Assembly (NCBI GenBank): GCA_905235065.1
Contig: CAJOJR010000006.1
Location: forward strand, 1-43,324
Reading direction: 5' to 3'
Source of the DNA: an uncultured Bacilli bacterium
GTDB lineage: Bacteria > Bacillota_I > Bacilli_A > RF39 > UBA660
DNA length: 43,324 bases
Part shown: positions 7,760-14,102 of the stretch, one piece after another
Position numbering within the stretch: the stretch's first letter is position 1
Layout of the letters: each line of letters starts with the position of its first letter
Translations under genes and position numbers: made by a program
The notes under the pieces: generated by a model
The model's input: only the letters and a program-made list of their open reading frames with translations
Databases searched by the model: none
What the model was told of the DNA's origin: nothing

Positions 7760-7784
7760 AGAGAATTTTATTTCTCTTTATTTT
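7754..7784. terminator. Bidirectional terminator between convergent genes
   Basis: aaataaagagaa-tttta-tttctctttattttt, T/A-rich tails on both strands. Confidence 0.6.
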
Positions 7785-9450
7785 TATTAAATATAACTTC
7801 TTTATTTTTTATAATTACTACAATTAATATAGAAACGACTACCACTAATAAACCACCCGCAATTAATAGCAGATTCACTTTTTTACTCTTTTGGAAAGCC
7901 ACAACTTTTTCTTCTTTTTCGGTAGTTAACAATGTGCTATCCAGCTTTTTATTAACAAGTATATATGATGAATTATGATCTATTACAAATTCATAATACC
8001 CATCTTTTCCTTTTGATATATTATATGCTATTGCAGTAAATTTATCTTCTTCTGCATTATAGTAATAAACATTTATTCCACTATTATTTAATTTTTGATT
8101 TAATTCATCATTTGGTTTTATTCTTACCTGTGCTTTTCCAGGTAAATTTCCGTTATTTGGAAAATCAACGATAATTCCTTCTTTAACTAGATTAAATATT
8201 TCTTCATTTTCTCCTATAGAACGAACTTCAATATTTACATCAATTGTTTTAGAAGTTATTATATCTTTTCCATTAAATATAATTTGATTATCATTATTAT
8301 TAATTTTTAAAACTTTATTTGTTCCTTTTATCGAATCAAATAAGCCACTATTAATTAATGTGCTTGAAATTGCGTTAATATTTATTTCTGAAGAATCAGG
8401 TAAACTATATATATTTGATATTAAATTATCATTCACATCCTCAATATTATAAACATATGTCTTAGCAACTTCCTTTGGAGTTTCTGTAGAGTTTACTTCC
8501 TCAGGAATTTCCAAATCAAATTTATAAGTTAATTTTTCCACACCAGAAGCATTACTATTTGAATAAATTTTTGTATTGGAATTTGAAATTAGCATAACAT
8601 CTGTTAATGAATATTTTCCGGGTTTAGAAGTTGAAGGAATTTCAAAATATGACTTTGATGTTAAATCTTTAACATAAACATCAAGTACTTGATTTGACGA
8701 AGTTTTAAATACTAATTTTAAACTTTTTAATGTCTCACTTGCTTTAAAACTCATACTAACTTTTTCACCAGGTTTAGCGGTTGTAGAATTAATTTTTAAA
8801 TCTGTTAGTTTTAAAACCGTTTGTGTTTCTAAAGCAGTTACTTTTATTACATCAAGAAGTTCCCAATAAGTTGCATCATTTTTTGGTACACTACTATATC
8901 GTTTAGTAAAGTTTGTATCATCATCATTTAAACCAATTAATAAAACATCTGTCACTTCATAAGAAGCTGTTGTTAAATTTGTTGGCAATACTATATATGG
9001 ATTATTCCAAATATCTTTAACTTGAAGAGAGTTTGTTATATTTGTTGTTTTATTTTTTAAAACTACTATCATATCCTCTAAATATGCGCCGCTAGTTGAA
9101 AAATCAACATAAACTTTTTCGCCGGCTTTCGCTGATTGTGTTTTAACATGAAAGTAATTTAAATATATAATATTATTAGGGTAATAGGCATTTCCGCTTG
9201 TTGCATTTGAATCAGTTGCATTTGCATCTGTTGCATTTGCATCCGTTGCATTTGAATCAGTTGCATTTGCATCTGTTGCATTTGCATCCGTTGCATTCGA
9301 ATCTGTTGCATCCCCTATTGAATTAAATAAATAACCTTGAATTGAAAAAATTGATTCAGTCTCAAGTTGGTGCCCAATAAATATTCCGAAAGCAAATATT
9401 GCTATTCCACCAATCAAAAACATTAAAATTTCTTTTTTAAACTTCTCCAT
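7768..9450 (-). CDS. Membrane-anchored extracellular protein with D-X-N-A-T repeats, N- and C-terminal TM segments
   Basis: 560 aa; FLIGGIAIFAFGIFIGHQL N-terminal TM, DATDSNATDANATDANAT... repeat, C-terminal LLLIAGGLLVVVVSILIVVIIKNK. Confidence 0.8.
   Translation of the reverse strand: MEKFKKEILMFLIGGIAIFAFGIFIGHQLETESIFSIQGYLFNSIGDATDSNATDANATDANATDSNATDANATDANATDSNATSGNAYYPNNIIYLNYFHVKTQSAKAGEKVYVDFSTSGAYLEDMIVVLKNKTTNITNSLQVKDIWNNPYIVLPTNLTTASYEVTDVLLIGLNDDDTNFTKRYSSVPKNDATYWELLDVIKVTALETQTVLKLTDLKINSTTAKPGEKVSMSFKASETLKSLKLVFKTSSNQVLDVYVKDLTSKSYFEIPSTSKPGKYSLTDVMLISNSNTKIYSNSNASGVEKLTYKFDLEIPEEVNSTETPKEVAKTYVYNIEDVNDNLISNIYSLPDSSEININAISSTLINSGLFDSIKGTNKVLKINNNDNQIIFNGKDIITSKTIDVNIEVRSIGENEEIFNLVKEGIIVDFPNNGNLPGKAQVRIKPNDELNQKLNNSGINVYYYNAEEDKFTAIAYNISKGKDGYYEFVIDHNSSYILVNKKLDSTLLTTEKEEKVVAFQKSKKVNLLLIAGGLLVVVVSILIVVIIKNKEVIFNKNKEK
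9200..9311 (-). repeat. Coding tandem repeat, 15-nt unit (7 copies) with an exact 45-nt higher-order duplication
   Basis: Units gttgcatttgaatca/gttgcatttgcatct/gttgcatttgcatcc; bases 9200-9244 identical to 9245-9289. Confidence 0.95.
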
Positions 9451-11099: not shown

Positions 11100-11669
11100 T
11101 TAAACATACATATGCTCTCTTTCAAATACTTTTTCTTCCATATACTCATATTCATTAAGAAGAGATATTTCACCTGTTTCTAAAGTCTTTTGAACATCTA
11201 TTAATCTTTGATTTCTAGATCCCCTAAATAATAGGCTTAAATCTCTTTCCTCTAATATAAATTTTCCATCTACAAGTACATCTATATTTTTTAAAAACTC
11301 TAAATATATAGAATCACTCTTTGACATATCTATTAATTCTTCATATGTAAATCCAGTATATACCCAAATATTAAGCCCTTTTTTCTTAGCGTATTTAGCT
11401 ATTTTCTCACATGCATAAGGTTGATACATAGGGTCTCCACCACTAAAAGTTACTCCTGATTGATATTCAAGTTTATCAATTTCTTTTAAAACTTCTTTTA
11501 TTGGAACAAGTCCTCCGCCTTTAAAACTCCAAGTTTGAGGATTTTGACAACCTTTACAATGATGATTGCATCCTTGAGTCCATATTACTGTTCTAAGTCC
11601 TGGACCATCAACAATACTGTCTGATTGTAGGTCTGCTGCAAGTCTTATATATTCTTTATTTTGTTCCAT
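11100..11669 (-). CDS. nrdG: Anaerobic ribonucleoside-triphosphate reductase activating protein NrdG (radical SAM)
   Basis: SIVDGPGLRTVIWTQGCNHHCKGCQNPQTW (CxxxCxxC) and VTFSGGDPMYQP; likely start MEQNKEYIRLAADLQ at 11669 rather than the ORF-track start at 11720. Confidence 0.93.
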   Translation of the reverse strand: MEQNKEYIRLAADLQSDSIVDGPGLRTVIWTQGCNHHCKGCQNPQTWSFKGGGLVPIKEVLKEIDKLEYQSGVTFSGGDPMYQPYACEKIAKYAKKKGLNIWVYTGFTYEELIDMSKSDSIYLEFLKNIDVLVDGKFILEERDLSLLFRGSRNQRLIDVQKTLETGEISLLNEYEYMEEKVFEREHMYV

Positions 11670-11805
11670 GAGTGACTCTGTCATTAACTTCTTGTTTTTT
11701 AGCGTTGTTGAATCTATCAAGAGTTCCTACTAGGTAACCAGTTATTCTTCTGATTCTATCAAATTTAACTCCTTCACCAACAAGCTTTTTCTTTTTTTCT
11801 TCCAT
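11656..11805 (-). CDS. Separate glycyl-radical C-terminal segment of class III RNR (49 aa)
   Basis: MEEKKKKLVGEGVKFDRIRRITGYLVGTLDRFNNAKKQEVNDRVTHGTK; R-[x]-x-G-Y-L glycyl radical signature; SD GGAAAGGAG upstream of ATG at 11805; different frame from nrdD. Confidence 0.85.
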   Translation of the reverse strand: MEEKKKKLVGEGVKFDRIRRITGYLVGTLDRFNNAKKQEVNDRVTHGTK

Positions 11806-11828
11806 TTTTAATACTCCTTTCCTATTTA

Positions 11829-14102
11829 TTAACGACCACAACAGTCATAACAATTTATTTTTTCCATTTCTACACCTTCGCCCTCATGTCTTCCACATCT
11901 AGGACAAACGTCTTTTATAACACCAACATATCCACATACTGGATCTCTATCTACTGGATGGTTAATAGCTCCATATCCAATATCAGAGTCATGCATTATT
12001 CTAACAACAGATTCAAATGCATCAACATTATTTACTGTATCTCCATCAAGTTCAACATATGAAATATGTCCTGCATTTGTAAGTTTATGATAAGGTCCTT
12101 CAATTTCCATTTTATGTTTAACAGAAGTTTTGTAATAAACAGGTACATGGAATGAATTTGTATAATAATCTCTATCGGTTATTCCTTTAATTTTTCCATA
12201 TATTGATCTGTCAATTGCCACAAATCTTCCAGATAAACCTTCTGCAGGTGTTGCTAAACACGTAAAGTTTAGATTATATTCTTTTGTATATTCATCACAT
12301 TTTTCTCTCATATGTTTAATAATTTCAAGGCCTAGTTTTTGAGCTTTATCACTTTCTCCATGATGCTCACCTATTAATGATTTAAGTGTCTCAGCTAAGC
12401 CTATAAATCCAATTGATAATGTTCCGTGTTTTAATACAGTTCTAAGTTTAGTAGTACTATCCATCTTTTCGCTATTAATCCAAACACCTGAACCTAATAA
12501 GAATTTGAAATTAGCTCTTGTTTTTGAACATTGACATTCAAATCTTTGAAGTAATTGATTTTTAACTAAATCCATAGTTTCATCAAGCTCAGCATAAAAT
12601 GCCTTCATATCTGCTTTATCTCTTTCACCTAAAGCTATACCATGTTTTAAACCTATTCTTGGTAAGTTTATAGATGTAAAACTTAAATTACCTCTTCCTG
12701 GTGTAACTGAAGGGCCACAAACATTAGCAAGTACTCTTGTTCTACATCCCATATATCCAACTTCTGTAGTATAGTCTCCTTCAACTAAGAATGGTTTATT
12801 AAAACTTGAATCTAAGAACGAGAAGTTAGGGAATAATCTTTTAGCTGATACTCTACAAGCAAGTCTAAATAAATCATAACTTGGATCTTCTTTATAATAG
12901 TTAACTCCTTCTTTTACTTTAAATATTGATATTGGGAATATTGGAGTTTCTCCATGACCAAGTCCATCTTCGGTAGCAAGTAGATAATTTTTAATTACCA
13001 TTCTTCCTTCAGGAGAAACATCTGTTCCAAAGTTAACTGAACTAAATGGAACTTGTGCTCCAGCTCTTGAATGCATTGTATTTAAATTGTGAATAAAAGC
13101 TTCCATTGCTTGATAAGTACTTCTATCAGTCTTCTTCATAGCAAGTTTATACGAATCTTCAAAGATTTCCCTTAATCTATTACTTTTACTTGTTATATCA
13201 TCAAAAACATTTTGATCAAATTCAATGCTTTCTTGTTTATCTATTATTTCTTCTACCTTATTAAAATTAATAAATTCTTTGAATCCTTCAAATTCACATA
13301 AATTATATATTGCTTGTTTTAATTCTTTCTTAAATGTTTTTAAAACACCAGGAGCCATATAATAATCAAATGCTGGTATACTTTGTCCTCCATGTTGTTC
13401 ATTTTGATTAGCTTGAATTGCTATAGCCGCAAGTGCTGCATAAGATGCAATACTATTTGGTGTTCTTAAAAATCCATGACCAGTTGAAAATCCATTTTTA
13501 AATAATTTATTTAAATCAATTTGTGTACAAGTTGTAGTACCCATTGCCCAGAAATCCAAATCATGAATATGAATTGCACCCTCATCATGAGATCTAGCAT
13601 ATTTATTATCCATTAAATATGCCTTAGCAAATTCTTTTGATATTGTTGAACCAAAATGAAGCATAGTTCCCATTGGCCCATCACCATCAACGTTGGCGTT
13701 TTCTCTTTTTGCATTCTCTTCAGCTGCGCTTTTAAGTCCTAAAGATTCTATTGCCTTTACAAATTTATGTTGTTGTTTTTCAACAAAAGCTTCACGTGAA
13801 GCAGTTCTTCTTTCTCTATATCCTTTAAAAGATTCATATACTTCATCATATTTCATCTTTTTAAGCATTTCTTCAATCGCATCTTGTATATCTTCAACGC
13901 CAATTGTTTTTCTATCTTTGTAATTCTTTTCAATATATTCAAGAACTTTCTCTTTAACTTTATTAACTAGTTTTTCATCATAGTCTTCATAAACACTGTC
14001 AAAACCTTTTTTAATAGCTAATGCTACTTTAGTTTCATTGAAATCAACTCTTTGTCCACTTCTTTTGACAACAGTAATTTCATTAAGTAAATTTCCTTCC
14101 AT
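11829..14102 (-). CDS. nrdD: Anaerobic ribonucleoside-triphosphate reductase NrdD, large part (ATP-cone + catalytic domain + Zn site, lacking glycyl radical segment)
   Basis: ATP-cone ITVVKRSGQRVDFNETKVALAIKKGF; NQNEQHGGQSIPAFDYYMAPG; C-terminal CPRCGRHEG...CYDCCGR then stop. Confidence 0.95.
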   Translation of the reverse strand: MEGNLLNEITVVKRSGQRVDFNETKVALAIKKGFDSVYEDYDEKLVNKVKEKVLEYIEKNYKDRKTIGVEDIQDAIEEMLKKMKYDEVYESFKGYRERRTASREAFVEKQQHKFVKAIESLGLKSAAEENAKRENANVDGDGPMGTMLHFGSTISKEFAKAYLMDNKYARSHDEGAIHIHDLDFWAMGTTTCTQIDLNKLFKNGFSTGHGFLRTPNSIASYAALAAIAIQANQNEQHGGQSIPAFDYYMAPGVLKTFKKELKQAIYNLCEFEGFKEFINFNKVEEIIDKQESIEFDQNVFDDITSKSNRLREIFEDSYKLAMKKTDRSTYQAMEAFIHNLNTMHSRAGAQVPFSSVNFGTDVSPEGRMVIKNYLLATEDGLGHGETPIFPISIFKVKEGVNYYKEDPSYDLFRLACRVSAKRLFPNFSFLDSSFNKPFLVEGDYTTEVGYMGCRTRVLANVCGPSVTPGRGNLSFTSINLPRIGLKHGIALGERDKADMKAFYAELDETMDLVKNQLLQRFECQCSKTRANFKFLLGSGVWINSEKMDSTTKLRTVLKHGTLSIGFIGLAETLKSLIGEHHGESDKAQKLGLEIIKHMREKCDEYTKEYNLNFTCLATPAEGLSGRFVAIDRSIYGKIKGITDRDYYTNSFHVPVYYKTSVKHKMEIEGPYHKLTNAGHISYVELDGDTVNNVDAFESVVRIMHDSDIGYGAINHPVDRDPVCGYVGVIKDVCPRCGRHEGEGVEMEKINCYDCCGR

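Follow-up and report, generated by a model that had tools for sequence, protein, structure and literature searches.

A class III ribonucleotide reductase that very likely carries its radical glycine on a separate 49-residue protein

Introduction

When the catalytic chain of a class III ribonucleotide reductase (RNR) ends before its glycyl-radical loop, and the loop appears on an open reading frame (ORF) of its own, is the enzyme broken, is it joined during translation, or does it work in two pieces? RNRs are sorted into three classes by the way in which the radical is generated and the place where this happens, and in the fused class III NrdD enzymes the radical glycine belongs to the same chain as the catalytic barrel. 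Here we analyzed a 43,324-nucleotide stretch of DNA from an uncultured Bacilli bacterium (contig CAJOJR010000006.1; the whole stretch is called the window below), in which the RxTGYL glycyl-radical loop is absent from the C-terminus of the NrdD chain and is encoded on a separate 49-aa ORF. We compared this locus with relatives, viral contigs, and solved structures.

Results

The NrdD chain stops where a 49-residue ORF takes over

Three genes follow one another on the minus strand of the window in the order nrdD, 49-aa ORF, and nrdG. The first (11829..14102, minus strand) encodes a class III catalytic chain of 757 aa without a glycyl-radical loop, which ends in ...CGYVGVIKDVCPRCGRHEGEGVEMEKINCYDCCGR* with a TAA at 11831-11829. 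This core covers positions 1-532 of the 562 in PF13597 (E 5.1e-184) and breaks at the same place against NCBIfam NF005497 (E 3.9e-300); its closest solved structure is Prevotella copri (P. copri) NrdD, 8p23. An ATP-cone occupies residues 10-100 (13803..14075, minus strand; PF03477, E 2.1e-10). The PF13597 barrel with its finger-loop cysteine is present: Cys453 (MGC-RTRV; 12744..12746, minus strand), the expected thiyl radical site by sequence position and alignment, is invariant in a 24-row alignment of cores, and the NxN flap is retained alongside it. A Zn-ribbon motif, C723-x9-CPRC736 (11895..11936, minus strand), falls on invariant Cys columns and is the homologue of the Zn site of T. maritima and P. 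copri NrdD (PMC4493059, PMC11226230). After it comes a short tail, GEGVEMEKINCYDCCGR (11832..11882, minus strand), made up of a second copy of the GEGVxxE(K/R)(I/L) segment and a Cys-rich end (GEGVEMEKI-NCYDCCGR), and then the stop. Because the core stops before the RxTGYL loop, we treat the window's NrdD as a variant and not as an ordinary class III member. The neighboring nrdG (11100..11669, minus strand) encodes the radical-SAM activase (TIGR02491, 149.7 bits, where the cut-off is 126).

The small ORF (11656..11805, minus strand; MEEKKKKLVGEGVKFDRIRRITGYLVGTLDRFNNAKKQEVNDRVTHGTK) lies in another frame than nrdD, with 23 nt between the nrdD TAA and its ATG at 11805 and an SD-like AAAGGAG (11814..11820, minus strand) 8 nt upstream of that ATG. 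Its own TAA (11658-11656) lies within nrdG if nrdG begins at ATG 11669, which gives a 14-nt overlap; ATG 11684 is an alternative nrdG start. The ORF aligns with the final 31 positions of PF13597 (532-562, E 3.6e-8), so that core (1-532) and small ORF (532-562) sum to exactly one NrdD with nothing missing, and E values of this size (3.6e-8 for the small ORF and 5e-184 for NrdD) place both matches far above chance. The PFL-type Gly_radical family, PF01228, gave no match to it at E <= 1. Reading GEGVKFDRIRRITG23YLVGTLDRFNN, the protein can be aligned, residue for residue, with the glycyl-radical loop and tail of fused NrdD and is conserved across 13 aligned sequences from different genera, among which TGYL is invariant. 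Gly23 (codon 11737..11739, minus strand) is the predicted glycyl radical site; its RITGYL lines up with that of the P. copri NrdD loop, in which the radical glycine is residue 711 (PMC11226230).

A sequence-only reading of this DNA had described NrdD as ending after its Cys pairs, followed 23 nt later by a 49-aa ORF in a different frame with its own SD and ATG at 11805, and all of this is present in the sequence. Its placement of Gly23 in the radical-loop motif agrees with the alignment, and its 14-nt overlap holds for the nrdG start at 11669. The interval that it gave for the split, 11656-11900, does contain the small ORF but also takes in the last ~24 codons of nrdD. Elsewhere in the window, 7768-9450 (minus strand) encodes a predicted membrane-anchored protein with a NATDANATD repeat run near its N-terminus.

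The split is shared and purifying selection acts on the loop ORF

One explanation is an assembly or sequencing error, or the decay of a once-whole nrdD in this assembly or lineage. Small errors or lesions do occur in this MAG, as a broken valS on the same contig attests (18770-21326, minus strand). Its N-part is 185 aa long, its C-part resumes in another frame, and the usual segment between them is apparently absent; the break is a small deletion or frameshift, which may have arisen in assembly or may be a true lesion of an essential gene. Against an error or decay at nrdD, however, the same split occurs in > 100 genomes, and cores have an extra conserved tail while loops have an extra conserved head, which no single indel yields. 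The split enzyme is also the only RNR, and the loop ORF has a dN/dS of ~0.14 (pooled over six relatives). In a sister species (G001), the 49-aa protein is identical, with seven synonymous and no non-synonymous changes over 37 codons, and the intergenic length differs from that in the window. These substitution patterns point to purifying selection on the loop ORF. We therefore regard error or decay as extremely improbable, the shared split in relatives being enough to reject it. The sequence-only reading had itself argued against simple decay from the SD, the motif, and the coupling to nrdG, and the SD, the motif, and the gene order with nrdG do recur; it had also looked to relatives for a continuous nrdD frame, and they share the split instead.

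Programmed frameshifting or stop read-through would make the split only apparent by fusing both ORFs into a full-length NrdD. The ORFs are indeed close and in order, and those split relatives with both ORFs in one frame have one or more stops between them, in some cases just one or two. Yet the gap and the frame vary even among the window and its near relatives (gaps of 23, 20, 29, 27, 23, and 24 nt). Among fetched loci, we found the core/loop/nrdG order in 75 distinct loci, which bears out the synteny expected from the sequence alone; this collection was gathered with the stand-alone loop as query and is biased to split loci, and no prevalence was drawn from it. All three relative frames occur in its 75 unique split pairs (frames 0/1/2 in 21/35/19), gaps range from 1 to 216 nt, and the widest contain several stops. 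Almost all loops come with an SD and an ATG of their own: an SD-like site precedes 71 of the 75, compared with ~9% of random positions. Moreover, G059, G742, G735, and G736 have no loop adjacent to the core. Fusion by frameshifting or read-through is thus highly improbable.

Loops also occur apart from the core, in host genomes and in phages

The complete genome G059 encodes a loop-less NrdD and, ~1.4 Mb away, a loop protein of 92 aa; a fused NrdD is also present. On the core's own contig in G742, G735, and G736, which are fragmented assemblies, no loop was found beside the core. Nine genomes contain orphan loops, and all nine have a loop-less core; six of them also have an adjacent loop and carry one to four extra copies. 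Among the neighbors of orphan loops are genes for a phage-type helicase and for a conjugation coupling protein, as well as ordinary chromosomal genes. Among 50 larger viral contigs, 46 have a loop with no NrdD core on the contig, although such contigs may be incomplete; in two of them (L138, 49 kb, and L141, 48 kb) nrdG adjoins the loop gene and nrdD is absent from the contig. An exception to the host pattern is G010, which has an orphan loop in a phage-like region and in whose genome the NrdD found is fused.

The four genomes without a core-adjacent loop, together with phage loops that lack nrdD, strengthen the proposal, first made from the window alone, that the loop is supplied in trans. 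Those checks proposed with the sequence-only reading that could be made all agreed with it. Taken with the selection on the loop and the sole-RNR status of the split enzyme, the evidence makes it most likely that the small protein acts in trans, as a radical subunit. The three relative frames, the purifying selection, and the unlinked loops led us to reject an assembly frameshift, gene decay, and programmed frameshifting. About as likely as not is a further proposal, in which the radical subunit is both modular and mobile. Hosts whose cores lack a loop would draw on an interchangeable pool of loops (operon, unlinked chromosomal, and conjugative-element copies), and phages would bring a loop of their own, in some cases together with nrdG, so as to re-arm the host enzyme or to take it over along with the dNTP supply.

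Several other loop genes were observed. A second stand-alone type, 86-97 aa long, places a conserved N-terminal domain of ~55 aa (E..AY...P...G..V) ahead of RIRRITGYL; it occurs with unlinked loop-less cores and in phages (L124, L206, L221, L045, L186, L190, and L168), and in the one protein examined its N-domain had no Pfam match over the cut-off. Eggerthella phage EL753P1 (L216, OP172808.1) has an nrdD with an apparent intein-like insert and an end without a loop, and in the deposited record a loop ORF ~500 nt downstream of nrdD is interrupted where the frame changes. Plasmid matches in C. difficile, Monoglobus, and Paenibacillus, taken at first for stand-alone loops, are really C-termini of fused NrdD.

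The cut recurs across phyla and doubles a junction segment

A loop profile built from small ORFs matched 144 of 291 genomes of the window's family; by hand count, about 120 of these matches are stand-alone frames 52-81 aa long, and 23 belong to full-length NrdD. In Fibrobacterota, 86 of 168 genomes matched, about 80 of them stand-alone (hand count). Named split or stand-alone loci were also found in Clostridia, Mogibacterium, Lachnospiraceae, Desulfovibrio, and Succinivibrionaceae, with a stand-alone loop in Succinivibrio dextrinosolvens DSM 3072. On a tree of 101 cores, a sample that is biased to split loci and includes a duplicate of the window's own core, the split and fused states need at least nine changes, five of them forced by well-supported branches; splitting, fusing, or transfer has therefore occurred repeatedly.

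At the junction, fused relatives read CPGCGRTEADGVGFERIRRITGYL. Split-core tails read EGEGVxxEKL and then a new end in 60 of the 75 unique pairs, and every one of the 75 loops carries GEGVxFERIRRITGYL, with variation. The GEGVxxE segment is thus doubled in split pairs, with one copy on the core and one on the loop. The simplest origin of the split would be a partial duplication at the junction. YfiD likewise doubles a PFL strand that is still carried by PFL (PMC8683613).

The core tails have a further feature. In a survey of the split cores in L053-L132, a Cys pair past the Zn motif ends 41 of 75 split NrdD tails, as opposed to 1 of 16 fused enzymes, where it comes after the loop; the Cys-rich end of the window's tail is at 11832-11855. 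Counting either piece, a Cys pair occurs in 46 of 75 pairs, and where the core has none, the end of the loop sometimes has a CxC. A redox role for these tails was considered and dropped, the Cys pair being enriched and not universal.

The split enzyme is the sole RNR detected in several genomes

No other NrdD and no class I or class II RNR was detected in the window's genome, a MAG that is 91.7% complete; a missed second RNR is possible there alone, and less so in the isolate DSM 3072. The search thus gave neither the second full-length nrdD that the sequence-only reading had named as a counter-sign nor a hidden class I/II enzyme. Across the family, class I/II RNR exceeded the cut-off in just 1 of 291 genomes, and G000 and at least 10 of its family relatives have no NrdD other than the split one and no class I/II enzyme. 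S. dextrinosolvens DSM 3072 has one NrdD core, which is split, and no class I/II, and so the only RNR detected in this isolate is the split one. As dNTPs can be made de novo by RNR alone (PMC2795772), the split class III RNR is, on this genomic evidence, very probably active.

These data also bear on whether the small protein is a repair part only, in the strict manner of YfiD/GrcA, such that a loop-less core would be inactive or otherwise activated and dNTPs would come from another RNR or nucleoside salvage. Split or loop-less NrdD does occur together with fused NrdD in G002, G029, and G059 (the full-length enzyme is of a shorter type in G002 and G029), and many genomes have extra loop copies. 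But in G000, at least 10 family relatives, and DSM 3072, the split NrdD is the sole NrdD and class I/II is absent, and the core keeps the catalytic Cys453 and the NxN flap. A repair-only role is accordingly very improbable. The sequence-only reading had drawn an analogy to YfiD/GrcA, and this stands as far as the way of working goes; the loop here would be a required subunit of a loop-less core, not just a repair part.

Discussion

We consider it very likely, on comparative sequence evidence, that this locus encodes a class III RNR whose two pieces are translated separately, one being the catalytic NrdD core and the other a subunit of ~50 residues with the radical glycine and the C-terminal tail. 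Translation would be coupled across the nrdD-loop-nrdG operon. The small subunit would dock at the site that a tethered loop takes up in ordinary NrdD, between the barrel and the Zn ribbon, and NrdG would take a hydrogen from Gly23. The loop would then enter the barrel and pass the radical to Cys453, and NTP reduction would follow. Oxygen cleaves glycyl radical enzymes at the radical glycine. Because the cleavage falls there, only the 49-aa piece would be lost to oxygen, and it might be replaced without a new 85-kDa chain.

The glycyl-radical domain of fused P. copri NrdD can move: it is ordered in the presence of substrate and loses its order with dATP (PMC11226230), and this mobility makes a detached domain plausible. 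As a stand-in for a two-chain model, the split relative L054 was modeled with AlphaFold2 as one chain across its in-frame stops. The core took an NrdD fold, with P. copri NrdD as the best match; pLDDT at the loop tip was < 50, and the same dip appeared in a fused control (L003), so that the model speaks neither for nor against docking. One point counts against the two-piece reading: an undocked 49-aa peptide would somehow have to keep its radical.

The split enzyme shares its fold family, ATP-cone, finger-loop Cys, Zn motif, and NrdG partner with fused class III NrdD (P. copri 8p23, T4, and T. maritima), but in those enzymes the radical glycine is in the same chain, whereas here it is on a separate protein and the GEGVxxE segment is on both pieces. 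The known spare parts of PFL are YfiD/GrcA and Y06I, a phage T4 protein. They too are small autonomous copies of the enzyme's C-terminal glycyl-radical region plus a segment retained on the enzyme (PMC8683613). The small ORF is likewise a free-standing homologue of the radical C-terminus of a glycyl radical enzyme (PF13597 532-562), but YfiD/GrcA belongs to the PFL Gly_radical family PF01228. YfiD/GrcA repairs a cleaved chain, its target enzyme having a loop of its own; the window's core is loop-less, its genome has no other NrdD, and in split genomes the small ORF is the only source of the loop, as a required subunit would be. We therefore file the split enzyme, provisionally, as a variant of class III RNR that would work like the GrcA family without membership in it.

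Some other RNR catalytic chains are also encoded in two parts. The split class II RNR NrdJa/NrdJb (PMC9669993) is of another class. Phage nrdD/nrdA split by introns, inteins, or endonucleases (PMC3653736) are mostly interrupted genes; here the break point is another one, the detached piece is the radical-bearing loop, and no mobile element lies between core and loop (a 23-nt gap in the window and 1-216 nt in relatives). No description of a separately encoded NrdD radical loop was found in the openly searchable literature, a scope that leaves subscription papers and most preprints aside, so a prior description is possible.

A class III RNR with its radical on a detachable 50-residue protein would be a subunit composition that we have not found described, and it offers a natural experiment on the docking and activation of the glycyl loop. 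YfiD and Y06I are the only validated spare parts, and others may exist (PMC8683613); the question of spare parts for other glycyl radical enzymes, left by that work, is now testable in cultured strains. For annotation, a core is matched as NrdD despite its missing radical site, and the small ORF can stay unannotated, as in Eggerthella phage EL753P1. Finally, the loop copies on phages and mobile elements suggest a cheap viral means to control host dNTP synthesis.
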